Shown piece by piece: positions 2,030 to 17,160 of a stretch of 36,153 nt of DNA; position 1 is the stretch's first letter; each line of letters starts with the position of its first letter. Source of the DNA: Desulfosarcinaceae bacterium (GTDB lineage Bacteria; Desulfobacterota; Desulfobacteria; Desulfobacterales; Desulfosarcinaceae). The position numbers and the translations under genes were made by a program. The DNA lies in assembly GCA_030066015.1 (NCBI GenBank), contig JASJCL010000040.1, positions 1 through 36,153 of the forward strand, given 5' to 3'. The notes beneath the pieces are model-generated. The model did no database searches. It was given only the letters and a program-made list of their open reading frames with translations, and was not told where the DNA came from.

Positions 2030-3871
2030 ATGTTACCCGAGTATTTCGAATTTACCCTCCCTACCAAGTTGATATACGGCATCGGCATTTTAGGGAACAT
2101 CGCTGATTCGGTAAAAGCTTTCGGAAAACGCAGCGCCATTGTGGTTACCGATGAGGTCCTGGTAAACACCGGCCTGGTAGAGAAAGTAACGGCGGGATTT
2201 GCGGGGAGCCAAATCAAGATCGCCTGCACCTTTGACAAGGTGCCGCCCAACTCGACCATCGATACCGTTGAAGCATGTGCTGCTATGGCGACCGAAAAAA
2301 AATGCGACCTTTTCATCGCAGTGGGCGGCGGCAGCGTCATCGACACGGCAAAGGTCGCCAATCTCCTGGTGGTGAAAGGCGGCAGCCTGCAGGACCACAT
2401 GGGGGCCTATCTGCTTGACAGCAGCGAGCACCTCTTGCCGTCCATCGTAATCCCGACCACCGCCGGGACTGGATCGGAAGTCACTAAGGTGGCGGTCATC
2501 GCCGATCCGGCCAACGACGTCAAGCTGCCCTTTGCCGAAGAGCAATTTCTTCCCCAGTTGGCCATCCTCGATCCGGAGATGACCGTTTCTCTGCCTGGCA
2601 AGCTGACCGCCGCCACAGGGATGGATGCGCTGACGCATGCCATTGAAGCCTACGTCGACAAGGAGTGGTCACCGGCGTCGGATGCCCTGGCCCTGCACGC
2701 CATCAAGCTCATCTCCCACAATATTCTGCAGGCCTGCGCCAAGCCGGAGGATCTGCAGGCGCGCAGTGCCATGCAGGTGGGCAGCTTTCTTGCCGGGGTA
2801 GCCTTTTCCCATTCTATGGTGGGGATGGTACACGGCATCTCGCATGCCCTGGGCGGGGTGTACCACATCCCGCATGGCCTGGCCAACGCCTTGGTGCTCC
2901 CCGAGGTCATGGCCTACAATCTCGAGGCGCAGGTGGACCGCTATGCGGATATCGCCTTGGCCATGGGCATCTCCTTCCCCCAGGTGATCGACCAAAGCAA
3001 GAGCCTGCTGGGGTCGGACCGCCTGGACCTGCCATCCAAGCTGGCGAGCTATTCCGATGTCGATTCCCTCAAGGAACTGGTCAATACGGGTTCATACCGG
3101 GCGCGCAGCATGCTGTCCCAAGCCATCGGCAGTTTCGGATTCATCGACAGATGGGTACGCAAGCAGGCGGCCCTGGCCGCCGTCGAGAAAATCCACACGC
3201 TGAATCGGCAATTGGCCTACTTGACCAAAATGCCGCTCAACCTGAAAGACGCCGGCATTTCTGACGACTTGGATAAGATTGAGCAGGTCGCTACCACCGC
3301 CATGCAAGACGGGTCCATGCTCTACAATCCAGTCGAGCCGGAACACGAGGCGGTTGTGGAGATCGTCAAACGGCTCTATAACGCCAAGACAAAGCCCCTG
3401 CCGGTATCGAGATCAGATCTGAGACCGATGGCGGCCGGTCGGTCAAATGAGCAGTTCACCAATGTCTTTCAGAATGCCGACATGCTTTACGAGGTGCTGG
3501 TTGAATTCTATGAGCTGTTAAAGGCGAATCCCGAAATCGGCCCGAAGCTCGCGCAGAGCGACCTATGTGTACAATTTAGATATAAGAATCCTTCGGCCAT
3601 CATCACTATCGACGCCACTGGAGAGGATATCGAGATTCTAAAAGGCGCCTTTGATGGCCGCCCGGAGGTTACCTTGACCATGAAGGCGGACTTTGCGCAT
3701 AAGTTCTGGCATGGCAAGGCCAACCTGGTGACGGCCCTGACGCGCCGCCAGGTGGCCGCCAAGGGCGACGTGCCCAAAACCATAAAACTGCTGCCCATTC
3801 TGAAACCAAGCTATGCGCTCTATCCGAAGTTTCTGGTCAAAAAGGGGCTGCGCCATCTGGTGATGACCTGA
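2030..3871 (+). CDS. Iron-containing alcohol dehydrogenase fused to a C-terminal SCP2 lipid-binding domain
   Basis: Residues 1 to about 455 are a group III (Fe-type) alcohol dehydrogenase: the NAD(P)-binding GGGSVID lies at 99-105, and the metal ligands D199, H203, H268 and H282 have the family spacing. Compared with the 391-residue paralogue at 13645 it carries about 70 extra residues near 300-400. After a linker, residues ~475-610 form an SCP2 (sterol carrier protein 2) domain that aligns end to end with the free SCP2 protein at 14842; shared features include the AHKFW and ALTRRQ motifs. The likely role is reducing long-chain aldehydes to alcohols, with SCP2 holding the lipid; the chain length is inferred from the SCP2 domain and the neighbouring wax synthase. 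The SD is AAAGGA, with ATG seven bases on. The gene converges with the patatin gene after 45 bp. Confidence 0.9.
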   Translation: MLPEYFEFTLPTKLIYGIGILGNIADSVKAFGKRSAIVVTDEVLVNTGLVEKVTAGFAGSQIKIACTFDKVPPNSTIDTVEACAAMATEKKCDLFIAVGGGSVIDTAKVANLLVVKGGSLQDHMGAYLLDSSEHLLPSIVIPTTAGTGSEVTKVAVIADPANDVKLPFAEEQFLPQLAILDPEMTVSLPGKLTAATGMDALTHAIEAYVDKEWSPASDALALHAIKLISHNILQACAKPEDLQARSAMQVGSFLAGVAFSHSMVGMVHGISHALGGVYHIPHGLANALVLPEVMAYNLEAQVDRYADIALAMGISFPQVIDQSKSLLGSDRLDLPSKLASYSDVDSLKELVNTGSYRARSMLSQAIGSFGFIDRWVRKQAALAAVEKIHTLNRQLAYLTKMPLNLKDAGISDDLDKIEQVATTAMQDGSMLYNPVEPEHEAVVEIVKRLYNAKTKPLPVSRSDLRPMAAGRSNEQFTNVFQNADMLYEVLVEFYELLKANPEIGPKLAQSDLCVQFRYKNPSAIITIDATGEDIEILKGAFDGRPEVTLTMKADFAHKFWHGKANLVTALTRRQVAAKGDVPKTIKLLPILKPSYALYPKFLVKKGLRHLVMT

Positions 3872-3916: not shown

Positions 3917-4801
3917 TCAGTCCAGGGGGCCCAGTTGGCGGGCATTGTGATATCCCTCTTGCACCAAGCGCCGCGCCTGGCGGCTTGAGAAATTGAGCAG
4001 GGATCGAAACCCGAGCATACGGGAAGGCGCCACCACGCGGATCCTCGGCCGCCTGCCGGATGGCGCCCCCCTATCCATGGCGGGCAGGCAGCCTGGATGC
4101 ACCCAGGTAAACGGCTGCCGGCGCCCCGCGCTTACCGGGCAGGTTGACTGGTAGGAGCCGCTCAATAAGTGTTCAAAGACAAGCTCAAGCCCATTGATCA
4201 GTGTCCCTGGAAACGGCATCTCTAGGTGCCCCACCGGCGACAGCAGCACCACGATGATCTCATCCATCTCTCTCTGCAGGGCGGTGAACAGGGGCGTGTT
4301 GGCCATCACGCCGCCGTCCCAGTAGGGCTCTCCGCCAATATACTGCCAGGGAAAAAGGATGGGCATGGCGCTGGATGCCATCAAATGATCGACCTCGATT
4401 TCATGCTGATTAAATAGATACAGCCGCCCGTTCACCACGTTCACGGCAGTGATGATGATGTCGATGGGGCTCTGCCGCAGGGCGGTCAGATCCAGGTGCT
4501 GCGTGATCAACGCACGCAGGGGGGCCGTGTCCAACAGGGGCTTCAGCGGTTTGCGGAAAAGGGCAGACCCCAGAGACTTTATCAGTTTGCTGCGATAGAT
4601 TCTGGAGCGATGGCCGGTCGTCCAAATCCGTCTCAGCCCTTCTACCGTCAAGCCGGATCCGATGGCCGCTGCACTGATGGCCCCTATGGAGGTGCCGCAG
4701 ATCAGATCGGGCGTCCACTGTTGCTCCTGCAAGTATTTCCAGACCCCGACGTGGAAGGCACCGCGAGCCCCGCCCCCTGTGAGAACCAGCGCTTTTTTCA
4801 T
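3917..4801 (-). CDS. Patatin-like phospholipase / acyl hydrolase
   Basis: This is a 294-residue serine acyl hydrolase of the patatin family. Visible elements are the oxyanion loop GGGARG (9-14), the nucleophile elbow GTSIG with Ser38, and the catalytic Asp162 in the DGG motif, giving an intact Ser-Asp dyad. No signal peptide is seen, so it probably acts on intracellular membrane or storage lipid. I start it at the ATG at 4801 rather than further upstream: it is preceded by GAAGGTG, puts the GGGARG loop at the normal N-terminal position and leaves only four bases after the stop of the FFLEELY-motif gene, so the two are surely co-transcribed. In context it could mobilise wax esters or triacylglycerol, but phospholipid turnover is equally possible. 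Confidence 0.9.
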   Translation of the reverse strand: MKKALVLTGGGARGAFHVGVWKYLQEQQWTPDLICGTSIGAISAAAIGSGLTVEGLRRIWTTGHRSRIYRSKLIKSLGSALFRKPLKPLLDTAPLRALITQHLDLTALRQSPIDIIITAVNVVNGRLYLFNQHEIEVDHLMASSAMPILFPWQYIGGEPYWDGGVMANTPLFTALQREMDEIIVVLLSPVGHLEMPFPGTLINGLELVFEHLLSGSYQSTCPVSAGRRQPFTWVHPGCLPAMDRGAPSGRRPRIRVVAPSRMLGFRSLLNFSSRQARRLVQEGYHNARQLGPLD

Positions 4802-4805
4802 ACCG

Positions 4806-5462
4806 TCACCTTCGGCCTTCGCTGCTGCCGCGTCCTTCAAACCAAATCTCGTCATGCCAGGCCCGCTCACGCCGGTCGATGGTTTCCACGAAGTAGTCAA
4901 TATTCTCAATTACTCGGAAGCCGGTATAGCCCTCATGGATAAAATCGAGGATTTTGCCCATACCGATGAGGTGGGCTGCCGTACGGACAGTATTGAGCGA
5001 TACCGCCACGACCCATTTTTTGCTCAGCCGGTGAAAGGTGCGCGTGACCTCCGCCCCCAACTCGATTTGGGCGATGCGCTGGTCGTAATTGTCCAGGCTG
5101 CGATAGACCTTCTGGTACTGGTCCATATTCATATCGACTCCCACACCCATGGCCATCATCTGCTCGACCATGCGATCATCCTGCGAGTCCGTGAGTTCAT
5201 GTAATTCGATGACCTTTTGTACGGCCGAGATGATGCCGGTATATATTTTCCCTTTAAGGATCTTATGCAGCTTTTTGATGCTGGTGTCCCGAAAAGTGAA
5301 GTCCTCGGGCGCATAGAGTTTTTCGAAGAAGAAGCGGCCGATTTGAGCGTATTCGGCGGTATTTTTAATGTCGGCATAGGTGGTGTTGATACGGGCCGCC
5401 TGAAATGCCTGCAGGGCTCGCTTCAAGGCGATGAAGTGGTTTTTTTCCTCCTGATCCGTCAT
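4806..5462 (-). CDS. FFLEELY-motif family protein, function unknown
   Basis: This 218-residue, mostly helical protein has no signal peptide. Near residues 43-49 it carries a variant of the FFLEELY motif (RFFFEKLYAPEDF), followed by a charged region and a long helical second half. It resembles the proteins named for this motif, whose function is not established. The start is strongly supported by AAAGGAGG seven bases before the ATG. It is followed four bases later by the patatin gene, so a role linked to that lipase (partner, chaperone or granule targeting) is plausible but inferred. It is separated from the phaR-like gene upstream by 228 bp containing a terminator, so it should have its own promoter. 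Confidence 0.7.
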   Translation of the reverse strand: MTDQEEKNHFIALKRALQAFQAARINTTYADIKNTAEYAQIGRFFFEKLYAPEDFTFRDTSIKKLHKILKGKIYTGIISAVQKVIELHELTDSQDDRMVEQMMAMGVGVDMNMDQYQKVYRSLDNYDQRIAQIELGAEVTRTFHRLSKKWVVAVSLNTVRTAAHLIGMGKILDFIHEGYTGFRVIENIDYFVETIDRRERAWHDEIWFEGRGSSEGRR

Positions 5463-5690: not shown

Positions 5691-6344
5691 TCATTCTGAT
5701 CTTTTCGGTGATTTTGTTTTGGTTGCTGCGGGTTTTTTTCTGGTTGCAGGGGACTTTTTGCGGGGTTTTTTCTCAGCAGTTGCCTGCGCTTTCTCCAATT
5801 GCTTGACTTTTTTGTCCAGGGCTTCCACCTTGGCGGTCAAGGTCTGCAGGTGATCATTGGTCGCCAGATTCATGGCATCGAAGACTTCACCCACCCGTTT
5901 GTCGATCCGTTCGCCGATCCAGCCTTTCAGGGCATTGGTGTGCCCAATGATCTCCGTTTTTAACCGGCTGCCCTCTGAAAGCGACAGCTCTTTATTCTTG
6001 ACCAACTTGTTGACCAGTTTGTCGATTTCATCTTCCGCCATGTTGAACGCACCCTGCCACAGGGATACATATTTTTTGGCGTAGTCGGTCAGCGTCCCGC
6101 CGCCTTTACGCAGCAATTGCATCAGAAATCTTGAGGATACGGCCGCATCGTTCTCCTCGTCCTGGCTCTCCATCCCGATGAGCTGCGACACAATCGCGGT
6201 GGTTAAATCCTCACCGGTCCGGTTGTCGATGATCGCCACCTCCTCTCCTTTTTTGATCAGCTCGGCGAGCTGATTCCGGGAGATGTAACGCTTGTCAGTG
6301 GTATCGTACATTTTCCGATTGGCGTATTTTTTAATCAGGTGCAT
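5691..6344 (-). CDS. phaR: PhaR-type granule-responsive repressor with phasin-like C-terminus and basic tail
   Basis: The 217-residue protein begins with the PHB/PHA accumulation regulator DNA-binding domain (MHLIKKYANRKMYDT, then an IIDNRTGEDLT segment). A PHB_acc-type helical region follows at about 70-110. The last third is phasin-like, with a leucine-zipper-like coiled coil (about 165-190) and a Lys/Pro/Ala-rich basic tail resembling histone H1-like tails of PhaF-type phasins. Known PhaR proteins repress phasin genes until granules titrate them away. I choose the ATG at 6344 because GGAGA lies six bases upstream and it gives the standard family N-terminus; a longer TTG start at 6404 has no ribosome site. 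It is divergent from a phasin gene across a symmetric promoter/operator, as expected for autoregulation. Its ligand could be PHA or another neutral-lipid surface. Confidence 0.9.
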   Translation of the reverse strand: MHLIKKYANRKMYDTTDKRYISRNQLAELIKKGEEVAIIDNRTGEDLTTAIVSQLIGMESQDEENDAAVSSRFLMQLLRKGGGTLTDYAKKYVSLWQGAFNMAEDEIDKLVNKLVKNKELSLSEGSRLKTEIIGHTNALKGWIGERIDKRVGEVFDAMNLATNDHLQTLTAKVEALDKKVKQLEKAQATAEKKPRKKSPATRKKPAATKTKSPKRSE

Positions 6345-6411
6345 CTTATTCTCCATCTTTATCAGGGGCCCGTCTGCCGGCGGTAAAAATTTTTCCGATT
6401 TCAAAAAAGCT

Positions 6412-6526: not shown

Positions 6527-7198
6527 ATGCCAGCATCAAAAACCAAGCGTGATGTAAAGAAAACCGCCACCCGCAAGGCCAATCCGCGCTACTATGTCCT
6601 TAAGACCGCAGCGGAAGCCCGCACCGGCCTGGCCCGCAAACTTAAAACCTATAACCGCAAATTCGTCGCCCAGCCTATCGAGAACGGCAAAGCCTTTGTG
6701 ACTGATCTGAAAGCCGACCCGCGTAAAACCGTCACCAAGCTGATGGATGAGGGCAAGGCGCGAATCACCGATCTGAACAAGGATGCGCGCACCCGTATCG
6801 ATGGGATACGAAAAGATGGCGGCGCTTTTTTGACCAAGGCCGGTAAAAGCCCTCGCAAAACTCTCGACGGGCTGATGGATGACGGCAAAGCGCTGGTCGA
6901 TGATGTTCGCGGCAGCACCCGCGAAAAACTTGACGATCTCGTGGTGGATCTGAAGATCGTCAAGGAGGGCGTCGCAAAGGATGCGCGCATGGTGGTGAGC
7001 GATATCTTGGACGGCGGTAAGCAAGCACTTGACCGGATACCCGGCAAGCGGCGCATTGAAAAAGAGTTGGCGAGCCGCGTGGAAGCGATACCGGCCACCC
7101 TCAATCTGCCCAGCAAGAAGGATGTTGAGCGGCTTGCCCGCCAGGTCAAAACCCTCAATGCCAAGGTCAACAAGCTGAGCAAAGCGCAGGCGGCCTAA
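6527..7198 (+). CDS. Phasin-like granule/droplet surface protein with 22-residue repeats
   Basis: This is a 223-residue, highly charged protein without signal peptide or membrane helix. Residues 51-182 are six uninterrupted repeats of exactly 22 residues, with the consensus x-D-x-GKAxxxDLxxDxRxxxDxL. The C-terminus (about 190-223) begins LPSKKDVERL and continues as a heptad coiled coil, the usual oligomerisation tail of phasins. Amphipathic 11/22-residue periodicity is typical of helices that lie on lipid surfaces (apolipoproteins, perilipins), so a coat role is likely. AAGGAG seven bases before the ATG supports the start. The gene is divergent from phaR over the shared operator and followed by a strong hairpin, so it is probably expressed at higher level than the genes downstream. 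The exact family is not certain because the repeats dominate the sequence. Confidence 0.75.
   Translation: MPASKTKRDVKKTATRKANPRYYVLKTAAEARTGLARKLKTYNRKFVAQPIENGKAFVTDLKADPRKTVTKLMDEGKARITDLNKDARTRIDGIRKDGGAFLTKAGKSPRKTLDGLMDDGKALVDDVRGSTREKLDDLVVDLKIVKEGVAKDARMVVSDILDGGKQALDRIPGKRRIEKELASRVEAIPATLNLPSKKDVERLARQVKTLNAKVNKLSKAQAA
6677..7072 (+). repeat. Six tandem 66-bp (22-residue) coding repeats in the phasin-like gene
   Basis: Residues 51-72, 73-94, 95-116, 117-138, 139-160 and 161-182 align without gaps. The first four share a D/N-(E/D)-G-K core and an R at the same later position; the last two are more diverged. The repeats are conserved as protein, not as identical DNA, which points to old duplication under selection. 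Confidence 0.8.
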
Positions 7199-7256
7199 AA
7201 CGATGCCGTGCTGAGACCCGTTGGGAGGAACACCCCCGAAGCGTGCTAAACGCGAA

Positions 7257-7308
7257 ATGGCGGTTGCCTTTTCAGGTGCATCAGTTATTCTGAACAGGCA
7301 GCCGCCAT
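7257..7308 (+). promoter_or_regulatory. Long mRNA hairpin between phasin and ferredoxin genes
   Basis: ATGGCGGTTGCCT (7257-7269) pairs with AGGCAGCCGCCAT (7296-7308) as a 13-bp stem with one G-U wobble. Inside the loop TTCAG (7271-7275) can pair with CTGAA (7290-7294). No T-run follows, so it is not a classic terminator; a processing or stability element, or a leaky terminator, fits better. Confidence 0.6.
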
Positions 7309-7382
7309 GGTCTTCTTGCCATCGGTTTGCGGCCGGCGCTCCATACAGCCCGCTCCATCTTTCTGGTATGACTGGGAGTGGC

Positions 7383-7649
7383 ATGGACCGAAATCAAGGC
7401 CTCATAGTGGGTATCCTGCAAGCAAATATTCCCGGAAAGTACCATGTGGATGAGCGGTGTATCGGCTGCGCCATCTGTGCCGAAATTGCGCCCCATAACC
7501 TCTGTTTTGATCATGCAGAGGGGTATGCCTATGTCTACAGGCAGCCCGGCAACGATTCGGAGGCAAGCCGTTGCGCCGAGGTCGTGGATATCTGTCCGGT
7601 CAGCGCCATTGGCGACAACGGTACGGGAGGTAATTTCGGGCCGGCATAA
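7383..7649 (+). CDS. Single-cluster [4Fe-4S] ferredoxin
   Basis: An 88-residue ferredoxin. One cluster is bound by C-x2-C-x2-C (CIGCAIC) and the later Cys-Pro in DICPVSAI; a second cluster motif is absent, as in the single-cluster [4Fe-4S] ferredoxins. I start it at the ATG at 7383, preceded by GGGAG; the long hairpin at 7257-7308 argues against a start further upstream. It is the first gene of the run leading into the two AAR-like genes (33 bp gap). It could serve the aldehyde:ferredoxin oxidoreductase encoded at 15280, or donate electrons to the AAR-like proteins. The second option would be unusual, since known AAR uses NADPH. Confidence 0.88.
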   Translation: MDRNQGLIVGILQANIPGKYHVDERCIGCAICAEIAPHNLCFDHAEGYAYVYRQPGNDSEASRCAEVVDICPVSAIGDNGTGGNFGPA

Positions 7650-7682: not shown

Positions 7683-9749
7683 GTGAAACAGGTCGTCAGC
7701 ATCAGTCTGGGCGCGAGCGCGAATGATTATGAATTTAACACTGAGTTCCTTGGCCAAGATTTCACAGTCACCCGTATCGGAACGGACGGGAATCTGGACA
7801 AGGCGGCGGAACTCCTGCTCTCCTGGGATAAACACGCTGATGCAATCGGGCTCGGGCAGGTCAAGTTGCCCTATGGCGTCGGCCCCAGATACCTGACCAA
7901 AAAACAAGACAATCACCTAAAGGAACTGGGCGCCCAAATTCAAACCCCCGTCACCTTGGGCAGTGCTCTGCGAGATGTATCCTTCGAGTGGGCCTTGAGA
8001 TACATCGAATACAAATTCGGTCACTATTTTGACAATGCCAGAGTGCTGTTTTTTTCCGGTATGAGCAGCTACCGGATTGCCAAAGTGATGTCGGAATTCA
8101 CGGATAATCTCACCTTCGCCGATCCCATCCTTGAGAACAGCATCCCCAAGTTCTTAAACTCGCTCGATGGTCTTGAATCATATGCCCATTCCGCCCATGA
8201 AGTATTTCAATGGGTGCCCAGTAAACGGCTGGCCGATTCGGTGGTGCCGATCAAGGCATGGAACGGATACATCCTTCGCAAGGCTGTTCAGAAAGCCACG
8301 GTTCTCGTGGTTCCCAGTTTCGGTTTTGATGCCTATTTGAAAGACTTCACTCTGGAGGAATTGGGCGGTAAGACGATCATCACCTCCACTGCCAGTGAGG
8401 AGCGGGTGGCCTTCCTCAAAGAGCGCGGCGTAGATGTCATCATCGATACGACCCCGAAAATCCTTGAGCGGGTCGTGGCGCCCAATGTGCTCGAAGCCCT
8501 GATCCTTGCCGCCTTAGGGCGTAATAACGACACCGTCCATGCGGATGACCTCCTGGAGATCATCAGCGCTCAAAAGATGGACCCGCGTGTTGTGTATCCG
8601 TCGGGAAGCCCGAGACGCGTCAACCGCTTTGCATTCGTGATCCACCCCCTATCCCAGGAGTTCCTGAAAAAAGATAAAGCGGTCGATATGCTTGCCAATT
8701 TCACCCCGCCTGCATTTCTGGATGCCGTTGAAAAAGTGATCGCCTATGCACCGCCGTGGGTGTATTCGCGGGTCACCGGGATAAAGTCTCCCCAGGGTGT
8801 TGAAACCGAAGGTTGGCTGCTCACGGTGGGAGGGACGCCCAAACAGATGCTGGCCCACAGTCCGGAATTTACCTATGCCCGCTTGCTGCAAGCCGCCCGA
8901 ATGGCAAAACGCATGGGCGCCCAGATTATGGGACTGGGTGCATTCACCAAGGTGGTCGGCGATGCCGGCGTCACCGTGGCGAAAAAGGCGGAGATCCCCA
9001 TCACCACCGGTAACAGCTACAGCGCTTCCGGTGCACTCTGGGCGGCCGCCGATGCCGTTCGCCGGATGGGGCTGATCAAGATCGAGAAAGGTCGGCGAAT
9101 CCAGGCGAAAACCATGGTGCTGGGCGCCACGGGCGCCATCGGTTCGGTCTGCTGTCGCCTTCTGGCCAAAGCCTTTCCCGAGATCTATCTGGTGGGCCGT
9201 AACACCGCCAAACTGCTTGCCCTCAAAGAATCGATCCTCAAAGAAGACCCCAAGACCAAAATTACGGTGACCACGAAACCCGATAAATTTTTAGCCGACA
9301 TGGATGTGATCGTTACGGCCACTTCCGGCGCGGGCAAGAAGGTGCTCGATATCACTCAGGTGAAGCCGGGATGCGTCATCACGGATGTGGCCCGCCCCCT
9401 GGATCTTTCTCCTGAAGACGTGGCCAAACGGCCGGATGTGCTGGTGATAGAGTCCGGGGAAATCGAGCTGCCGGGCAATCCTGAAATGAAGAATATTGGT
9501 CTTCCCGACAAGGTGGTTTATGCCTGCTTGGCGGAGACGATCGTGCTGGCACTGGAAGGGCGGTTTGAAGTATTCACGATCGGCCGGGATATTGAGTGGG
9601 AGAAAGTAAAAACCATCTATAAGCTCGGCCTGAAACACGGCATGAAATTGGCCGCCATTTCTGGGGTAAACGGCGTCTTCAGCGATGAGGATATCGCCCA
9701 AGTGAAAACGCTCGCACTGGAAGCCAGGAAAATGAAGCAGTCAGCTTAG
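7683..9749 (+). CDS. Acyl-ACP/acyl-CoA reductase-like protein (AAR family) with novel N-terminal half, copy 1
   Basis: The 688-residue protein has two parts. From about residue 320 to the end it follows cyanobacterial fatty acyl-ACP reductase: an ALG-x-FTKVV-like segment, then ITTGNSYSASGALWAA, the NADPH loop GATGAIG at 481-487, and YACLAET at 613-619. Cys615 of that segment aligns with the acyl-forming Cys294 of Synechococcus AAR. The family reduces an acyl thioester to a fatty aldehyde. Residues 1 to about 315 form a domain I do not recognise, shared only with the next gene here and lacking in the ~340-residue cyanobacterial enzymes. The start is the GTG at 7683, preceded by AGGAGG and matching the GTG start of copy 2. 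No aldehyde-deformylating oxygenase is nearby, so the aldehyde probably goes to the Fe-alcohol dehydrogenases. Confidence 0.85.
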   Translation: MKQVVSISLGASANDYEFNTEFLGQDFTVTRIGTDGNLDKAAELLLSWDKHADAIGLGQVKLPYGVGPRYLTKKQDNHLKELGAQIQTPVTLGSALRDVSFEWALRYIEYKFGHYFDNARVLFFSGMSSYRIAKVMSEFTDNLTFADPILENSIPKFLNSLDGLESYAHSAHEVFQWVPSKRLADSVVPIKAWNGYILRKAVQKATVLVVPSFGFDAYLKDFTLEELGGKTIITSTASEERVAFLKERGVDVIIDTTPKILERVVAPNVLEALILAALGRNNDTVHADDLLEIISAQKMDPRVVYPSGSPRRVNRFAFVIHPLSQEFLKKDKAVDMLANFTPPAFLDAVEKVIAYAPPWVYSRVTGIKSPQGVETEGWLLTVGGTPKQMLAHSPEFTYARLLQAARMAKRMGAQIMGLGAFTKVVGDAGVTVAKKAEIPITTGNSYSASGALWAAADAVRRMGLIKIEKGRRIQAKTMVLGATGAIGSVCCRLLAKAFPEIYLVGRNTAKLLALKESILKEDPKTKITVTTKPDKFLADMDVIVTATSGAGKKVLDITQVKPGCVITDVARPLDLSPEDVAKRPDVLVIESGEIELPGNPEMKNIGLPDKVVYACLAETIVLALEGRFEVFTIGRDIEWEKVKTIYKLGLKHGMKLAAISGVNGVFSDEDIAQVKTLALEARKMKQSA

Positions 9750-9760
9750 CGGAGGTCGCA

Positions 9761-11818
9761 GTGAAACGCATCATCCAGATCAGTCTCGGCGCCAGCCTCG
9801 ACGACCATGAATTTGAAACGCGATTTTTAAAGCAGTCCTATATCATCCAGCGTTTTGGGACGGATGGCGATATAGAACAGGCCTCTGACCTGATGCTCAA
9901 GTGGAATAAAAAGGCAGACGCCATCGCCCTGGGCAGCGTCCCCTTGGGCGGCTCCCCGGGCCTCAGAAAAACGGCGAACAAGAACCTGGCCGCCCTGCTG
10001 AAGCTGGGCACCAAGCTTGAGACCCCGGTTACTTCCGGCAGCACATTGCGCAAGGTCGGGCATGAGTGGTCGCTTCGGCATATCCAGTTCAAGTTCGGCA
10101 ACAACTATTTCAACAACGCCAGGGTGTTCTTCTACTCCGGCGTGACGAGCCGCTCCATCGCACGGGTAATGGCCGAGTACACCGCGAACCTTACCTTTGC
10201 CGATCCCCTGCTTGAAAATGGCGTCCCGAAGTTTATCACCTCTCTGAAGGACCTGGAGCTATATAGGGGCACCCTTCGCAGTGCACTGAACTGGATCCCC
10301 GGCAAAGGCGTTGTGGCGTCCAGCGAACCGGTCCGCTCGATGGTCGCCTATCTCATGCGACAGGCCATTCAGAAGGCGCATATCCTGGTTGTCCCCCACT
10401 CCGATTTTACAAAATATTTGGATCCATACACCATTGAAGATCTCAATAAGAAAACGGTCATCACCGCTACGGCGTATGATGACCGCATTGATTATTTAAA
10501 GGACAAAGGGGTCAGCACCATCATCGATACGACCCCCAAACTATTGAAAAACGTTGTGGGCGTGAGCGTGCTCGAAGCCTTACTCATGGTGGCGCTGGAG
10601 ATTGAGCAGGGCGCGGACCGGGATGATGACCTGCTGGAAGTGATCAGCAATATGAAGATGGAGCCTCGCGTTATTTATCCATCGGGCAAGCCGACACGGG
10701 TCAATCGATTCGCCTATATCGTGCACCCGCCCACGCAGGATGACCTGAAAAAGCTCAAACCCATCGAAGTGATAGCGGATATGGCCCCCGGCCTGATGGA
10801 CACCGTGGAGAAGGTGATGGCCTATTCCCCTCCCTTTGTCTATTCGACCGTGAGCGGCGTCCAGTCCGTGACGGGGGTGGAAGCGGAGGGCTGGCTCATC
10901 GCCCTTGGTGAGACGCCGGAGCAGATGCAGTCCCATGGACCGGAATTCACCACCAAGCGAATCCTTGAGGCCACCAAAATCGCCAAAAAGCTGGGTGCCC
11001 AAATCGTCGGAGTCGGAATGCTTCCCAAAGCCCTCAAGGATACCAGTGTGGAGGTGGCCAAGCACGCCGTTCTACCGATCACCACCGGCAACAGCTATTT
11101 TGCCTCGGCCACCCTCTGGGCGGCTGCCGAGGCGGTAAGGCGCTTGGGCTTGGTCAAACTGAAGAGAAATAAGATCCTTCGCGCCAAAGCCATGGTGATC
11201 GGAGCGACCGGCGCCGTGGGAATCATCTGCTCCCATTTGCTGGCCACCGCCTTTGAAGAAGTCCATCTGGTGGGCCGCAACATCGCCAAACTGCTGGCCC
11301 TGCAGGAAGCCATTCAAAAGGAGGCACCCAAAGTAAAGCTGCACGTGTCGACCCGGGCGGACACCAACTTGGATGCCATGGACATAATCGTGGCCACAAG
11401 TTCCGGTGCACGACACGTGCTTGATATCATGCGCGTCAAGCCGGGCTGTGTGATCACGGATATCAATATGCCCATGATTTTCACCCAGAAGCAGTGCGCC
11501 AAGCGGCCCGACGTTCTGGTCATCCGCGGCGGTGAGATACTGCTGCCAGGAGAAAATGTTGAGATGGAAGACATCGGCCTTCCCCCCGGGGTCGCCTATG
11601 CGGGACTGGCCGAAACCATCATTCTGGCCCTGGAAGGGCGTTTTGAGGTATTTACGGTGGGCGCCTCGCCCCAGTGGGATAAGGTGAGAGAGATCTACCG
11701 CATGGGCTTGAAGCATGGCATGCAGCTGGCTGCCATTTCAGGGGTTAACGGGATCTATTCAGATGAGGATATCGCGAGAGTCAGGGAGTATGCCGTCAAG
11801 GAGGCCAATCGAGCATGA
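9761..11818 (+). CDS. AAR-like protein, copy 2, lacking the catalytic cysteine
   Basis: This 685-residue paralogue of the preceding protein has the same layout with hardly any length difference; by eye about half of the residues match. The NADPH loop is GATGAVG at 481-487, and ITTGNSYFASATLWAA is kept. At residue 615, where copy 1 has the Cys aligned with AAR Cys294, it has Gly (GGA codon at 11603-11605, in YAGLAET). No other Cys lies at that site. It therefore should not form the acyl-enzyme intermediate, and may be a partner or regulatory subunit of copy 1, or use other chemistry. The start is GTG with GGAGG five bases upstream; the gap to copy 1 is 11 bp, and its stop overlaps the next start (ATGA). 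The family call is firm; activity is doubtful. Confidence 0.84.
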   Translation: MKRIIQISLGASLDDHEFETRFLKQSYIIQRFGTDGDIEQASDLMLKWNKKADAIALGSVPLGGSPGLRKTANKNLAALLKLGTKLETPVTSGSTLRKVGHEWSLRHIQFKFGNNYFNNARVFFYSGVTSRSIARVMAEYTANLTFADPLLENGVPKFITSLKDLELYRGTLRSALNWIPGKGVVASSEPVRSMVAYLMRQAIQKAHILVVPHSDFTKYLDPYTIEDLNKKTVITATAYDDRIDYLKDKGVSTIIDTTPKLLKNVVGVSVLEALLMVALEIEQGADRDDDLLEVISNMKMEPRVIYPSGKPTRVNRFAYIVHPPTQDDLKKLKPIEVIADMAPGLMDTVEKVMAYSPPFVYSTVSGVQSVTGVEAEGWLIALGETPEQMQSHGPEFTTKRILEATKIAKKLGAQIVGVGMLPKALKDTSVEVAKHAVLPITTGNSYFASATLWAAAEAVRRLGLVKLKRNKILRAKAMVIGATGAVGIICSHLLATAFEEVHLVGRNIAKLLALQEAIQKEAPKVKLHVSTRADTNLDAMDIIVATSSGARHVLDIMRVKPGCVITDINMPMIFTQKQCAKRPDVLVIRGGEILLPGENVEMEDIGLPPGVAYAGLAETIILALEGRFEVFTVGASPQWDKVREIYRMGLKHGMQLAAISGVNGIYSDEDIARVREYAVKEANRA

Positions 11819-13542
11819 TCTTCAAACTGGTGCAGAAACTCAGCCACACGTGCACGCGCTATCTCGTAAACGATGGACCTGCTCAGATCATCAACAGCTC
11901 ATACGACGCCTACAGCAGGCTTTATCGCGGCCAGATTAGCCTGGGGCTTCCCGTTTCAAAGGAATTAATTACCAGCCAGGCGGAGATCAGAAGCCAGGCG
12001 GTCCGCAAATTGGCCCTGGTGCTGTACCATATCTGTCTGAATGCGACCACCGTAAAGATCACCAGAGACGCCATCGGAAAGATTATCCACGATGAACTGA
12101 AAACCGGTCGTATTCGGCTGACCGAAAATGTCATTCTGCTTACGATAGAGCAAATCACCCACCTGGCCCTTCAGCGTTTCAAGATTCCGCGCAACGATCT
12201 GGATTCGATTTTAGAAACGGCTGGCCGGCGGCGAATTCTGAGTGAAGCGTTGCGAGTGGACCCGATACCCTCCTATTTCGAAAGCGATATCGAAGAAAAA
12301 GCGCAAAATGGGCGCGGCGACTATGAGACGGTTTATTATCGCAGTTTTACCGATGAAGGCAAAGAGATCGGTTTTCGCCGTCTGGTCAGTATGGAGGGCG
12401 TTACCGCTGGAGACAAACGTCCGGCGGTGGTGTTGGTCCCGGGTTTCGCCAACAATAGTAATTGCTTTAACATCAACAACCGCTATTCGCTGGCCAAGGA
12501 CATGGCGGACGATGGCGCCTGGGTTTACCTCTTCGACCCTCGCGGCGTCGGTGTGAACCAGGGACGCTTCGATCCACTGTATACCGTGGACACGATGATC
12601 GACTACGACTTGGCGACGCTGATTCGGTTCATCTATGCCCGCAGCGCCGGCAAACCTTCGGTGTTGGTGGGCCACAGCATGGGCGGTCTCGTCGCCGAAA
12701 ACATGCTGCTCAACTGGTCTTTGGCGCAGCGGCTCAACGACCTCGAAGGCCTTGCGCCAGCACAAAAAGATCTGCTGGCCCAGGTGCTGCCGCCGCCGCA
12801 GGCTGCCGCGCGTTACCAAAAAATGGTCAAAGGCATTGTCTCGCTGGCGTCACCGAAATTTTTCTCAAAAAAAGACCACGTCTTTTTTCCCACTTCACTG
12901 TGGCTCAATCACCTGACCCGGATATTTCGGCTCAAGAACGTTCCGGTCAAGGAGATTTCAAAAGTACTTACCGAACTGCCCCTGCTCAAACAGATGACGC
13001 GATTCGTGGCGAACCGCAATTTGGGCGACCTGAATTTTTTGATCTCACCGAATAATCATAAAAAGGACAAATACTTCGTTGAGCGCTATCTCAGAGTGGC
13101 CATGGAATCGATTCCCCTGGGACTGGGATTCCAGTGTCTGAAGGCCGTCTATAATGGGCAAGGCTTCAAACGAATGGATGGCAGCCGTTTAAACTACTCC
13201 GATTGGCTGCACATGTTTCCGGAGGAGATCCCTGTCTTCCATTTTTGGGGGGCGCGGGATAAGTTGGTGCCCCTCGACAATTTGCGCTATCGTACCCAAT
13301 ATCCCCATCGCGTCAAAAAAATATTCCACATCAGCTCTCCCAGAGACATGAAACACATCTCCATCACTTCAGAGAAGAGTCAACTCATCGATTTTGTGGT
13401 GGAGGGCGCCAATCACCTGGACCTGCTCTATGGCAAAGCGGCGGACGACATCGTCAAACCGCTGCTCATGCAGATCATTGAGAATGTATGGGGCGATTGG
13501 TCCTATCATCCCGAATGCGGGACCTCACAGGCGCGAGGATAG
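11815..13542 (+). CDS. Alpha/beta hydrolase with long helical N-terminal region
   Basis: The 575-residue protein overlaps the AAR-like gene by four bases (ATGA) and is translationally coupled to it. Residues 1 to about 190 are helical and unrecognised. From about 200 onward it is an alpha/beta hydrolase: oxyanion segment LVPGFANN, nucleophile elbow GHSMGG with Ser288, acid Asp482 in WGARDKLVP and His534 in EGANHLD, so the triad is complete. Layout and length recall PHA synthases and depolymerases, but a PHA synthase would have Cys in the elbow. It is more likely an esterase, thioesterase or acyltransferase acting on the products or substrates of the AAR-like proteins. No signal peptide is seen. 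The substrate is unknown. Confidence 0.82.
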   Translation: MIFKLVQKLSHTCTRYLVNDGPAQIINSSYDAYSRLYRGQISLGLPVSKELITSQAEIRSQAVRKLALVLYHICLNATTVKITRDAIGKIIHDELKTGRIRLTENVILLTIEQITHLALQRFKIPRNDLDSILETAGRRRILSEALRVDPIPSYFESDIEEKAQNGRGDYETVYYRSFTDEGKEIGFRRLVSMEGVTAGDKRPAVVLVPGFANNSNCFNINNRYSLAKDMADDGAWVYLFDPRGVGVNQGRFDPLYTVDTMIDYDLATLIRFIYARSAGKPSVLVGHSMGGLVAENMLLNWSLAQRLNDLEGLAPAQKDLLAQVLPPPQAAARYQKMVKGIVSLASPKFFSKKDHVFFPTSLWLNHLTRIFRLKNVPVKEISKVLTELPLLKQMTRFVANRNLGDLNFLISPNNHKKDKYFVERYLRVAMESIPLGLGFQCLKAVYNGQGFKRMDGSRLNYSDWLHMFPEEIPVFHFWGARDKLVPLDNLRYRTQYPHRVKKIFHISSPRDMKHISITSEKSQLIDFVVEGANHLDLLYGKAADDIVKPLLMQIIENVWGDWSYHPECGTSQARG

Positions 13543-13644: not shown

Positions 13645-14820
13645 ATGCTACCCGAATTTTATCAGTTTCATCACCCCACAAAAGTTATCTACGGTGAGGG
13701 GCTTGTTGGCGATTTCGCGCACGAATTGGAAGAGCTGAACGTGCGCAATTTTTTCATCGTATCGGATCAGGTGATAAAGGATTTAGGCCTGGTCAAACAG
13801 GTAGCCGCAGGCCTGCAGGCGGCTGGCTTTAGCATCAGCGGCGAATTTTATGAGGTTCCGCAAGACGCCTCGATACAGGCGGTTGAAGCCATCAGTCGCC
13901 TGGCCGCTGACAGCGGTGCGCAGGGGCTGATCGCCATCGGCGGCGGTAGCGTTATCGATGCGACCAAAGCGGCCAATTTTGTCTTTTCAGAGGGCGGGGA
14001 CCTCATCGATGACTATTCAGGCGCGGCGACACTGACCCGTCCGTTGAAGCCTTTTGTCGTTATCCCCACCACGGCGGGCACCGGCAGTGAGTGCACCTTG
14101 GTGGCGGTCATCAATGATGTGGAGAACAAAACCAAGCTGGCCTTTTCCGATAAGTTTCTGCTACCCGACCTGGCAGTGCTCGATCCGTTGATGACCCAAT
14201 CGCTTCCACCAGGATTGACCGCATCCACCGGGATGGATGCCCTCACCCATGCGGTGGAGTCCTATGTGGGCGTGGATTCATCACCGCATTCCGAAGCGCT
14301 GGCCGCCGCCGCCATCCAGTACATATTCAAGTACCTTTTACGGGCGACCGAAGACGGCAACGATTTGGAAGCCCGCGGCGGCATGCTTATCGCGGCCAAC
14401 CTCGCCGGTATCTCCTTCTCACATTCCATGGTGGGGTGCGTCCACTCCATGGCACATGCCGTCGGCGGTCTCTGCCGCGTCCCCCATGGCATTGCCAATG
14501 CGATCCTCTTACCCCATGGCATGGCGTATAATTTCGAAGTGTGCAAGCAGAAGTATGCCCGCCTGGCGCCTTTGATGGGTGCGGCGGTGTCCGGGTTGTC
14601 TGTGGAAGAAGCCGCCCAGAAGGCCATCCAGGCGGTCGGACGTTTGCTGGACCGACTGTCCGCCCTGGGTGCGCTGCCCACCAGACTCAGAGATGTAGGC
14701 GTGTCGCAGGAGATCCTCCCGGAAGTCGCAGACGCTGCCGTTGAAGACGGAACAATCGTCTACAACCCGCGTGAGGTGATAGCTGAAGAGATCTTGAAGC
14801 ACTTGGAAAACGCATATTAA
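13645..14820 (+). CDS. Iron-containing alcohol dehydrogenase
   Basis: This 391-residue group III alcohol dehydrogenase has the cofactor loop GGGSVID at 99-105 and metal ligands D198, H202, H267 and H281, all conserved with the family spacing. It is the closest relative in the window of the dehydrogenase half of the fusion at 2030 (both begin MLPE, then PTK.IYG) but lacks the ~70-residue insertion and the SCP2 domain. The SCP2 domain is instead encoded by the next gene, 21 bp downstream. It is preceded by AGGAG seven to eight bases before the ATG. The likely reaction is interconversion of fatty aldehyde and fatty alcohol; the chain length is inferred from context. About 100 bp separate it from the hydrolase gene, enough for its own promoter, though I saw none that was convincing. 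Confidence 0.9.
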   Translation: MLPEFYQFHHPTKVIYGEGLVGDFAHELEELNVRNFFIVSDQVIKDLGLVKQVAAGLQAAGFSISGEFYEVPQDASIQAVEAISRLAADSGAQGLIAIGGGSVIDATKAANFVFSEGGDLIDDYSGAATLTRPLKPFVVIPTTAGTGSECTLVAVINDVENKTKLAFSDKFLLPDLAVLDPLMTQSLPPGLTASTGMDALTHAVESYVGVDSSPHSEALAAAAIQYIFKYLLRATEDGNDLEARGGMLIAANLAGISFSHSMVGCVHSMAHAVGGLCRVPHGIANAILLPHGMAYNFEVCKQKYARLAPLMGAAVSGLSVEEAAQKAIQAVGRLLDRLSALGALPTRLRDVGVSQEILPEVADAAVEDGTIVYNPREVIAEEILKHLENAY

Positions 14821-14841
14821 CGTAAAGAAAGGCAGCGAAGC

Positions 14842-15255
14842 ATGGGTGTTTTCGAAAGTTCCGCAAAATTCGAGGAAGTCCTGGTGAATTTCTTTCGGCT
14901 ACTCGCGGATACGCCGGTAGTGGCGGACAAGTTGTTGGCCTCCAAACTCGTTATCCGCTTCATCTATTCAGACCCCGATCTGGTCGTGGTTGTCGATTGT
15001 TCCGGAGACGCCGTTGATGTCCGTGCGGGCGACCACGATACCGACGCCATCGTCGAAATGATGATGAAGGCCGACATCGCCCACAAGTTTTGGTTTGGGA
15101 AAGTCAACCTAACGATGGCCCTGACACGCCGACAGATGGTGGCCAAGGGGCCGGTTCCCAAGATTTTGAAATTGTTGCCGGCCATCAAACCGTCCTATGC
15201 CATGTATCCCCAGTATTTGGAGGAAAACGGTTTTTCCCAATACAATATTCATTGA
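14842..15255 (+). CDS. Free-standing SCP2 sterol-carrier-like lipid-binding protein
   Basis: The 137-residue protein aligns along its whole length with the C-terminal domain of the fusion at 2030. Shared motifs include KADIAHKFW, the ALTRRQ segment, then KGPVPKI and LLPAIKPSYAMYP near the end. SCP2 folds bind acyl chains, acyl-CoA or sterols in a hydrophobic cavity. Since the paralogue is fused to an Fe-alcohol dehydrogenase, this one probably works with the dehydrogenase encoded just upstream. AAAGG lies upstream of the ATG. The next gene, the aldehyde oxidoreductase, follows after 24 bp. No membrane segment or signal is seen. Confidence 0.85.
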   Translation: MGVFESSAKFEEVLVNFFRLLADTPVVADKLLASKLVIRFIYSDPDLVVVVDCSGDAVDVRAGDHDTDAIVEMMMKADIAHKFWFGKVNLTMALTRRQMVAKGPVPKILKLLPAIKPSYAMYPQYLEENGFSQYNIH

Positions 15256-15279: not shown

Positions 15280-17160
15280 ATGGGGGGATATGCTGGTAAA
15301 CTTCTATATGTCGATCTGACATCCGGTCAGATCCAGAAAACGCCCTTTGCGACCGATTTTGCCAGAGCGAATATCGGCGGTCTTGGATTCGGAACCAGTA
15401 TTTTCGTCGATTTGATCAAAGACAAACCATCTTTTGACGCTCTATCGCCCGATAATCCCTTTATCCTGATGACGGGCCCCTTGACCGGCTGCGGTCTGGA
15501 CGCCACGGCAAGATGGGCGGTGTGCTCAAAGTCACCACTGACAGGATTCTGGGGCGATGCCAATGTGGGCGGCTACTTCGGTGCTCGTCTTAAATGCGCG
15601 GGATACGACGGTATCGTGATCACCGGGGCAGCCCATCATCCGGTATATCTTTACATCAACGACCAGCAGGTCGAGCTTCGCGATGCCACCGCATATTGGG
15701 GCAAAGATGTCTATTCACTGACCGACCTGTTGTCCCAAGAATTGAAAACCCAATCCGCAGCAAAGGGAGAGGTGCTGGCCATCGGACCGGCTGGCGAGAA
15801 GCGGGTCCGCTTCGCCAACCTGATCCATAAGAAGGGGCACGCTGCCGGCCGGACGGGCATGGGGGCCGTCTGGGGGGCCAAGAACCTCAAGGCGATCTAT
15901 GTGGCCGGAACGGGGAAAATTCCAATCGCCCGGCCTGAGCAATTAAAGGCGCTGCGCAAGGAACTCAAAGCGGTATACAAGGAGAGCATCTACATCAGCT
16001 CCATTCAATCGGCTGGAACGCCTGCCCACATGGATGTAGGGATCATCGGCGGAGATATCCCCATTAAAAATTGGCAGCTGTCAGATTGGGAGGATATCGA
16101 CGAACTGGGGCCGGCATCCATCGAAGAGAAGATACACGCCGGGAATCGCACCTGTTATGGATGCCGTGTGGCATGTAAAAAAAACGCTGAAGTAAAAGAG
16201 GGCCCATTTAAGATGGCGAAGGGTCCCGGCCCCGAATATGAAACCGTGGCCGCTTTCGGTACCCTCTGCCTGAACCCCGACATTGAGTCCGTTGCCAAAG
16301 CCAACGAGCTGTGTAATCGCCATGGAATGGATACGATTTCCTGTGGCGCGACCATCGCCTTTGCCATAGACTGCTATGAAAACGGACTCATCAGCACACA
16401 AGAAACCGACGGTCTCGAGCTCTCTTGGGGAAATGCGGCCGCCATCGTCGCCATGGTGGATAAGATTGGCAAAAAAGAGGGCTTCGGTGCGATACTGGCG
16501 GAAGGCAGCGCCCGCGCTGCAGCCGCAATCGGTCAAGGCGCGGCGGCGCTTTTGACAACGGTCAAGGGGCTGGAAGCGCCCATGCACGACCCGAGAAGCG
16601 CCCATGGTTACGGGCTCGCCTACGGCGTCTCGCCACGGGGCGCCTGTCACGAAGCGAGCCTCACCTATGAAGTCGAGGGCGGCGCGATCTACATACCGGA
16701 GTTGGCGGACCTGGCGGAGGATTTGCCCGAGGGCAGCCAAGGCCGTGCGAAACTCAATGTGGCCTGCCAGGATTACGGCATGTTTTTTTCGAATTGCGCC
16801 ATATTCTGCAATCTCGGCGGTGCGCCGCTGAATGCGACCCAGGCCGTGGCGATGTTGAACCTCGTGACGGGTTTTGACTACAGCTTGGAAGAGATCATGG
16901 GCATCGGCCGGCGAATCTGGTATCGAAAACGCGCCTTGACCAACCTTTTTGGCGCGAGAGCCAAAGATGACCAACTCCCTAAACGACTCCTGACACCGCT
17001 GGCGCAAGGCCCGACCAAGGACAGTGTCCCGGACATGGAGTTGATGTTGGCAGAGTTCTATCAACTCCGCGGTCTTGATGAAAATGGGGTCCCACGGGAA
17101 GCGATCTTGAAAGCGCTCGGCCTGAGCACCCTGGCAGACCTCTTGTATCCACCACAATAG
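15280..17160 (+). CDS. aor: Aldehyde:ferredoxin oxidoreductase (tungsten-type AOR)
   Basis: The 626-residue protein has the full family layout: the N-terminal MGGYAGKLLYVDLTSG, the pterin-binding segment AGRTGMGAVWGAKNLKA (189-205), and [4Fe-4S] ligands C292, C295 and C299 (C-x2-C-x3-C) with a further Cys at 506 or 510. These enzymes carry tungsten-bis-pyranopterin and couple aldehyde and carboxylate to ferredoxin in the cytoplasm. Here it follows the SCP2 gene by 24 bp with AGGAGG before the ATG, so it belongs to the aldehyde gene run. It may remove excess fatty aldehyde or, with low-potential ferredoxin, reduce fatty acids directly to aldehyde. The ferredoxin at 7383 is the obvious candidate partner. 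The aldehyde specificity cannot be read. Confidence 0.94.
   Translation: MGGYAGKLLYVDLTSGQIQKTPFATDFARANIGGLGFGTSIFVDLIKDKPSFDALSPDNPFILMTGPLTGCGLDATARWAVCSKSPLTGFWGDANVGGYFGARLKCAGYDGIVITGAAHHPVYLYINDQQVELRDATAYWGKDVYSLTDLLSQELKTQSAAKGEVLAIGPAGEKRVRFANLIHKKGHAAGRTGMGAVWGAKNLKAIYVAGTGKIPIARPEQLKALRKELKAVYKESIYISSIQSAGTPAHMDVGIIGGDIPIKNWQLSDWEDIDELGPASIEEKIHAGNRTCYGCRVACKKNAEVKEGPFKMAKGPGPEYETVAAFGTLCLNPDIESVAKANELCNRHGMDTISCGATIAFAIDCYENGLISTQETDGLELSWGNAAAIVAMVDKIGKKEGFGAILAEGSARAAAAIGQGAAALLTTVKGLEAPMHDPRSAHGYGLAYGVSPRGACHEASLTYEVEGGAIYIPELADLAEDLPEGSQGRAKLNVACQDYGMFFSNCAIFCNLGGAPLNATQAVAMLNLVTGFDYSLEEIMGIGRRIWYRKRALTNLFGARAKDDQLPKRLLTPLAQGPTKDSVPDMELMLAEFYQLRGLDENGVPREAILKALGLSTLADLLYPPQ

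Follow-up and report, generated by a model that had tools for sequence, protein, structure and literature searches.

In a stretch of 36,153 nucleotides from a Desulfosarcinaceae bacterium (assembly GCA_030066015.1, contig JASJCL010000040.1; hereafter the window), two adjacent genes, A and B, encode proteins in which a C-terminal domain of the acyl-acyl carrier protein reductase (AAR) type is preceded by a further N-terminal domain (N). Sequence comparison and structure prediction make it reasonably probable that A is a fatty acyl-thioester reductase by which a sulfate reducer obtains the aldehyde for its wax esters, with N as a diverged partner of AAR fold and B as a non-catalytic paralogue. 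The two open frames lie in tandem on the forward strand, closely spaced, exactly where the initial annotation had placed them. That annotation took both products for reductases, which is wrong, since the catalytic cysteine is kept by A only and B has Gly615 in its place. The features of the pair are as follows.

7683..9749, + strand: gene A, predicted AAR-type reductase with an N-terminal AAR-like domain; GTG start, 688 amino acids
7683..8618, + strand: N-terminal domain of A, residues 1–312; AAR-like predicted fold, without glycine loop and without catalytic Cys
8625..9749, + strand: C-terminal AAR domain of A, residues 315–688; family, PDB and structure matches
9123..9143, + strand: dinucleotide loop GATGAIG of A, residues 481–487 (AAR 162–168); by alignment with AAR as described in the accessible part of PMC7089970
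9525..9527, + strand: codon of A Cys615, aligned to AAR Cys294, predicted acyl acceptor; same basis
9585..9587, + strand: codon of A Arg635, aligned to AAR Arg314, predicted NADPH phosphate pocket; same basis
9761..11818, + strand: gene B, paralogue of the same two-domain build, without the catalytic Cys; GTG start, 685 amino acids
11603..11605, + strand: codon of B Gly615, replacing the catalytic Cys; by alignment
11663..11665, + strand: codon of B Ala635, replacing the NADPH-phosphate Arg; by alignment

A purine stretch resembling a ribosome-binding site lies a few bases 5′ of each GTG, and the stop codon of B overlaps the ATG of an alpha/beta hydrolase frame at 11815. The two proteins are 50% identical in their N-halves and 58% in their C-halves, and a search of the source genome with A (5.73 Mb in 155 contigs, 97% complete) returned these two copies only.

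The identity of the C-terminal half of A is the firmest element of this reading. Residues 315–681 match NF053554, the family of the AAR-like half of PigE, at E 1e-55, which is the best NCBIfam match of the C-half, and TIGR04058, the family of cyanobacterial AAR, at E 6e-20. Both scores are far below the curated cut-offs (71.8 vs 449.7 bits for TIGR04058); by these profiles A is a relative of the cyanobacterial equivalog and not a member of it. Among PDB sequences the C-half matches AAR (6jzq) at E 2e-13. An AlphaFold2 model of the whole of A (predicted local distance difference test, pLDDT, 85.3) matches 6jzq_A in VIA-align with a Z-score of 31.8 over 326 aligned residues (root-mean-square deviation 3.4), whereas the next unrelated family, glutamyl-tRNA reductase, reached a Z-score of 13.1; in Foldseek the match to AAR has an E-value of 1e-19. 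The likeness to AAR that had been read from the letters is therefore borne out at the levels of family, PDB sequence and predicted fold.

The residues expected of such an enzyme are also largely in place. According to the accessible part of PMC7089970, Cys294 of AAR is the acyl acceptor, and the NADPH phosphate is bound by R189, R193 and R314. A carries the GATGxxG-type dinucleotide loop of AAR and has R506, K510 and R635 at the three arginine positions. Residues were counted over 65 loci from public genomes together with the window, and counts of loci exclude L001 and L002, which are the source genome itself. The Cys294 column of the A-type rows (69 in all) holds cysteine in 63 and serine in two of the 65 that are readable there; R635 is found in 65 of 65 readable rows, and position 510 is lysine or arginine in 64 of 66. 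Arg506, the equivalent of R189, counts against the reading, being kept in only 46 of 66 rows. In a deep alignment of the C-domain, where some genes are present twice, the cysteine column comprises 93 C, 24 G, 6 S and 1 A in 124 rows. (The first C-domain profile was made without L057, a second piece, and L067.) On the strength of these alignments and of the model, the C-half of A has the AAR fold and the acyl-accepting cysteine position, and A is probably an enzyme that turns fatty-acid thioesters into fatty aldehydes.

B presents a very different pattern. Its rows (27 in all) hold glycine in 24 and serine in one of the 25 readable at the cysteine column, and R635 is absent from all 25 readable rows, its place being taken by alanine, serine or threonine. 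Loss of both the cysteine and the arginine in every readable row argues that B is not a second reductase, and it is best described, from these alignments, as a conserved non-catalytic paralogue. The B rows form one clade with 100/100 support in a tree of 89 C-domains. B is full length in 24 of the 26 retrieved loci that have it, the remaining two being cut by a contig end. The ratio of non-synonymous to synonymous substitution rates (dN/dS) against five relatives is 0.07–0.19 for B, where defined, and 0.04–0.10 for A; the values for four closer pairs are about 0.07–0.21 (B) and about 0.03–0.17 (A). Such low values, indicative of purifying selection, mark B as a maintained protein, although many of those in the wider comparisons rest on near-saturated synonymous sites and carry correspondingly less weight. 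The possibility that B is a recent pseudogene is ruled out by its full length in those 24 loci together with purifying selection. An active enzyme with other chemistry, for instance a transferase that binds acyl-CoA or acyl carrier protein (ACP), would likewise be under purifying selection and would account for the retention, in all 26 B rows readable there, of the glycine loop together with T, N and Y from TTGNSY; given that the acyl acceptor and the NADPH-phosphate arginine have both gone in 25 of 25 rows, we regard it as distinctly improbable.

Cysteine losses outside the B clade were also seen. The two-row branch L054 and L055 has serine at this site; these rows were rejected as members of the B clade, since they form a clade of their own, also with 100/100 support, and because this stands apart from B their loss of cysteine looks independent. 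Serine is likewise present in L093, one of three copies in its genome. The sole fusion of N and AAR found in genome G097 (L069) has alanine at the catalytic position; no WS/DGAT (wax ester synthase/diacylglycerol acyltransferase) was found in that assembly, the contamination of which is 8%. At L028 (7738–12070) two tandem A-type genes, each with the catalytic cysteine, occupy the place of A plus B. Finally, the A proteins of Desulfamplus (L014, L017, L019, L022 and L027) have C-terminal low-complexity tails of about 90–130 residues that bring them to 780–820 amino acids; the sole tail scanned, that of L017, has no Pfam match. These five were left out of alignment A1 (76 of 84 rows of at least 640 amino acids), as were the A rows of L012 (odd end) and of L042 and L056 (both cut at the start).

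The nature of the N-domain is less readily established. It has no match above cut-off in Pfam or NCBIfam, and its profile has no match below E 1 among PDB sequences, so that the earlier description of a half without a known family stands. A structure search with the whole model says nothing decisive on N, its match list being taken up by the C-half, and for this reason N was folded alone, giving an AlphaFold2 model with pLDDT 87.8. In VIA-align this model is closest to AAR (Z 14.5 over 247 residues) and to the AAR-like carmabin TAD (Z 14.1), with 247–265 residues aligned, followed by malic enzyme (Z 11.0) and glutamate dehydrogenase (Z 9.5). An hhalign comparison of the N and C profiles of the family pairs 168 columns with p 1.6e-4, and the p-value improves with profile depth (from 0.019 through 0.0099 to 1.6e-4). 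Within it ADAIGLG of N is aligned with AQIMGLG of C, TPVTLG with IPITTG, SGMSSYRIA with GATGAIGSV and KTIIT with GCVIT, a register that appears to be the one suggested by the two predicted secondary-structure strings. Seven unrelated families from the window, taken as controls, gave p 0.076–0.32 against N and 0.018–0.71 against C.

Several observations must be set against an AAR-like origin of N. The hhalign probability is only 50%, shallower profiles gave p 0.01–0.08, p was 0.078 and 0.021 when context pseudocounts were omitted, and nothing emerged from a global alignment of N with C. The controls included no other Rossmann dehydrogenase family, and the lowest values against the C profile (p 0.018–0.025) came from two unrelated Fe-alcohol dehydrogenases. 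Foldseek E-values for the N model place sugar-binding proteins first and AAR tenth. Moreover, N has near-invariant residues of its own (D147, K230, P258 and E271), which suggests that it may bind or do something specific, and it is probably not mere filler. These points would fit another two-lobed Rossmann-like domain, of the type I sugar-binding or malic-enzyme kind, recruited as a ligand-binding regulator of the reductase: the best Foldseek E-values belong to sugar-binding proteins, malic enzymes reach a Z-score of 11, and the polar D147 and K230 are near-invariant in fused and separate forms alike. Nevertheless, VIA-align ranks AAR and the carmabin TAD first, some three Z units ahead, and the hhalign pairs follow the order of the predicted secondary-structure elements, so that recruitment of another fold seems to us fairly unlikely. 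That N is a diverged copy of the AAR fold, which has lost the cofactor loop and the cysteine, is on profile and model evidence quite likely.

The distribution of N bears on its relationship with AAR. N had been described as shared only by the pair, a statement that no longer holds, as it is seen in at least four phyla, both fused and separate; the idea that it is an artefact of chance or composition was rejected on the same grounds of conservation. Fused forms occur in Desulfobacterota, Bdellovibrionota, Pseudomonadota and, within Actinomycetota, Nocardioides (L058 and L059). An N profile from alignment A2 (87 of 88 N rows, L042 being left out) finds 34 matching genomes among 144 Bdellovibrionota; in 33 of these there is an open frame of 678–791 amino acids, and the cysteine is present in all 20 fusions whose AAR part was checked. 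There are two clear matches in Pseudomonadota besides the starting genome (398 searched). The domain is rare in evenly drawn samples of Desulfobacterota (3 of 296 and 3 of 297 tallied, each including one chance-level match), and six matches were tallied among 60 close relatives of the source genome. A weak match in L070 (E 4.3e-4) was treated as chance, the sequence looking, by eye and not by family scan, like a periplasmic binding protein followed by a permease; L074 (E 0.0047), L096 and L097 (E 1e-4 to 6e-4) were treated as chance unread and kept out of the profiles.

In Actinomycetota, a label taken from the phylum of the Nocardioides genome at the centre of the search, N is a separate gene of about 300–340 amino acids in 33 of 296 genomes (two of them cut by a contig end). 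A separate AAR-like gene adjoins it in 25 of the 33, with N upstream on the same strand. The existence of fusions in some genomes and neighbouring genes in others argues that the N and AAR parts work together. Weighing the other way, no AAR gene lies near N in six of the 33 genomes although the contig continues (the eight genomes that lack an adjoining gene being these and the two that are cut), and in L064 (genome G392) only the AAR part is present, the 1.9 Mb assembly containing no match to N, so that N may not be essential. The public name of the separate N proteins is probably ‘quinate 5-dehydrogenase’; a literature search with this name was empty, and the one such protein scanned has no NCBIfam or Pfam family.

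A gene for a class III aminotransferase lies between the N and AAR genes in nine of those 25 Actinomycetota genomes (L139, L141, L143, L155–L157, L159, L168 and L169), its family having been read in two of the nine loci and assigned in the other seven by similarity to the first. In L139 the row stands near coaX-, birA- and greA-like genes, by BLAST clusters with L137. The best NCBIfam match of the one aminotransferase scanned is putrescine aminotransferase, with the aminotransferase half of PigE third. Such a row is possibly a split counterpart of PigE, which combines a reductase with an aminotransferase.

The genes around A and B place the pair in context. The relevant features of the window are as follows.

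302..1969, + strand: WS/DGAT; PF03007 E 3.7e-39, PF06974 E 5e-44, TIGR02946 393 bits (cut-off 310)
2030..3871, + strand: Fe-alcohol dehydrogenase fused to an SCP2 (lipid transfer) domain; family scan
3917..4909, − strand: patatin-like lipase
5691..6404, − strand: PhaR-like granule regulator (PHB_acc_N)
6527..7198, + strand: phasin-like granule protein; 28.4 bits, marginally short of the 28.8-bit Pfam cut-off
7221..7649 (start provisional), + strand: single-cluster [4Fe-4S] ferredoxin, directly upstream of A; PF13370, residues 76–131
11815..13542, + strand: alpha/beta hydrolase, start overlapping the stop of B; family scan
13645..14820, + strand: second Fe-alcohol dehydrogenase (putatively aldehyde to alcohol); family scan
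14842..15255, + strand: stand-alone SCP2 protein; family scan
15280..17160, + strand: aldehyde:ferredoxin oxidoreductase (AOR) family protein; family scan
18276..20078, + strand: AMP-binding acyl ligase (putative fatty acid activation)

Going by these family matches, A and B sit in a wax-ester storage cluster, though the PhaR-like and phasin-like proteins would fit polyhydroxyalkanoate granules too. The combination of Fe-alcohol dehydrogenase and SCP2 occurs twice, once fused (2030–3871) and once as two adjacent genes (13645–15255), and the C-terminal tail of the WS/DGAT has a weak match to an HGGxSTG domain (20 bits, below the cut-off of 29).

Comparable neighbourhoods recur with B. Once L042, L051, L056, L063, L064, L067 and all loci lacking room are set aside, 18 of 19 loci with B contain WS/DGAT, as do 4 of 26 without it; the PhaR-like protein is matched in 14 of 14 and 1 of 11, respectively. 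The ferredoxin immediately precedes A in 20 of 23 loci that have B and in 14 of 34 that do not; the hydrolase lies directly downstream of B in 17 of 21, and none of 27 loci without B has it in the directly downstream position. The presence in the window of both the AOR and a ferredoxin directly upstream of A could be taken to indicate a reverse or ferredoxin-driven pathway, in which AOR reduces fatty acid to aldehyde and the AAR-like proteins handle or oxidise it. However, AOR is found in only one of 14 loci with B, and the ferredoxin, common as it is, shows no tie to AOR, which makes such a pathway very unlikely.

The link with wax esters extends from loci to genomes. WS/DGAT was surveyed in 80 genomes, made up of 18 non-Bdellovibrionota genomes that carry the fusion (G393 being omitted), 22 of the 34 matching Bdellovibrionota, and 30 Desulfobacterota and 10 Bdellovibrionota without the fusion. 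Among these Desulfobacterota it is present in 10 of the 11 that have the fusion (G097 lacking it) and in 1 of the 30 that do not (G019), and all seven Pseudomonadota and Actinomycetota genomes tested with the fusion have it, these phyla having no controls. The Bdellovibrionota do not conform: WS/DGAT is absent from all 22 genomes with the fusion, as it is from all 10 without, and it follows that the family as a whole is not tied to wax esters. In five Bdellovibrionota loci (L147, L149–L151 and L154) a YegS-type lipid kinase, an NAD_binding_4 reductase, the N–AAR fusion and DUF3419 stand close together, their families having been read in L147 and assigned in L149, L150, L151 and L154 by BLAST clusters; WS/DGAT was not found in the five parent genomes, and the set is, by these assignments, an uncharacterised lipid cluster. 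The aldehyde or alcohol made by the reductase might accordingly go into modified membrane lipids, such as alkyl-ether lipids, instead of wax esters. Besides the Bdellovibrionota, this idea draws on alkyl glycerol ether lipids that are reported for sulfate reducers in the accessible parts of PMC5552659 and PMC11150832. For the window itself it is unlikely, in view of the WS/DGAT and granule proteins found here and in 18 of the 19 loci with B, and of the association of WS/DGAT with the fusion among the Desulfobacterota tested.

Other routes to or from the aldehyde were also sought. The O2-dependent aldehyde deformylating oxygenase (ADO), the absence of which had been noted from the window, was indeed not found: PF11266 matches none of 17 genomes, including the source genome, and does match the Synechococcus control. 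The HMG-CoA-reductase-type FcrA (PF00368) was found in none of 10 related genomes, and A and B match other families. PF07993 has five matches in the source genome, all in frames of 348–406 amino acids; Acr1-type reductases were not searched for. FarA and AcrB, which contain PF07993, are larger proteins; this broad family also matches 13 of 14 control genomes. That frames of about 440 amino acids match it (E ~1e-39) in three related genomes counts against the proposed role of A. Overall, the WS/DGAT, the alcohol dehydrogenases and the granule proteins point to wax-ester storage and not to a hydrocarbon route. The earlier proposal of an anaerobic fatty-aldehyde route with a new domain therefore survives in part, in that an aldehyde role is likely and the domain has no known family, whereas the domain itself is most like AAR by predicted structure and profile alignment.

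From the AAR fold and its cysteine we infer the following scheme, in which substrate, cofactor, aldehyde product, role in wax-ester synthesis, the A–B complex and the function of N are all putative. The AMP-binding ligase (18276–20078) or fatty acid synthesis would provide acyl-CoA or acyl-ACP, the acyl group of which would pass to Cys615 in the C-terminal AAR domain of A. The acyl-enzyme would be reduced by NAD(P)H to aldehyde, which one of the Fe-alcohol dehydrogenases of the cluster would convert to alcohol, and WS/DGAT would esterify the alcohol into a granule. The N-domain would be a non-catalytic partner contained in the same chain as the catalytic domain, serving in docking, substrate handling or product hand-over, a part that may be likened to that of ADO in cyanobacteria and that neighbouring genes would share out in Actinomycetota. 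B may form a hetero-oligomer with A, or may hold acyl-CoA in the manner of the C294S mutant of AAR, which holds stearoyl-CoA without forming the thioester, according to the accessible part of PMC7089970. By analogy with ADO docking in cyanobacteria, N and B would most likely organise substrate uptake or the hand-over of aldehyde.

More tentatively, one A and one B may together comprise four units of AAR fold, only one of them catalytic, and may constitute a further bacterial route to wax-ester alcohols. On this view there would be a second class of AAR, spread across several phyla, in which a catalytic subunit is accompanied by a degenerate partner of AAR fold (a separate gene, a fused N-domain or, in sulfate reducers that make wax esters, the further dead copy B), these non-catalytic twins replacing ADO in aldehyde handling. 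The open-access literature, in such parts as were accessible, yielded no AAR-type reductase or N-domain of this kind in sulfate reducers and no description of the enzyme that forms the aldehyde when anaerobic sulfate reducers make wax esters; the accessible part of a fatty acid review (PMC6222795) contains nothing on wax esters in these organisms. The locus is a testable candidate for that step, and a domain without a family would be explained as a likely pseudo-AAR. The natural pairing of active and inactive AAR copies offers a system for the study of fatty aldehyde hand-over, of interest for the production of bio-alkanes and fatty alcohols, and, to judge from the split Actinomycetota row, amine formation may be another use of these parts, as in PigE.

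Several known systems invite comparison. Cyanobacterial AAR (TIGR04058; PDB 6JZQ, 6JZU, 6JZY and 6JZZ) shares with A the fold of the C-half, the catalytic cysteine, the GATGxxG loop and Arg635. A differs in its length of 688 amino acids with an extra domain and is 24–26% identical in structural alignment; the system in the window lacks ADO, stands in a wax-ester context and includes a paralogue without the cysteine. The carmabin TAD (PDB 9E4S, 9E4U, 9E4X, 9E50 and 9E56), assigned to the carmabin pathway by the depositors' naming, has an AAR-like fold, is the second-best structural match to both halves and shares 19–20% identity with the C-half; the open-access literature yielded no paper on it. 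FarA, AcrB, Acr1 and FcrA, the wax-ester reductases named in the accessible part of PMC11948995, belong to other families and are placed at the same proposed step, from acyl thioester to aldehyde or alcohol ahead of WS/DGAT. An AAR-type reductase outside cyanobacteria, as the initial annotation proposed, is correct for A, but the category was already in print with the thioester-reductase domains (NF053554) of PigE in prodigiosin and TamH in tambjamine synthesis, as the accessible parts of PMC8341465 and PMC9594044 describe. These are fused to an aminotransferase, whereas A and B are fused to the AAR-like N-domain and have no aminotransferase domain in Pfam and NCBIfam scans. The closest likeness to PigE is seen in the nine Actinomycetota loci, where separate genes for N, AAR and a class III aminotransferase are brought together.

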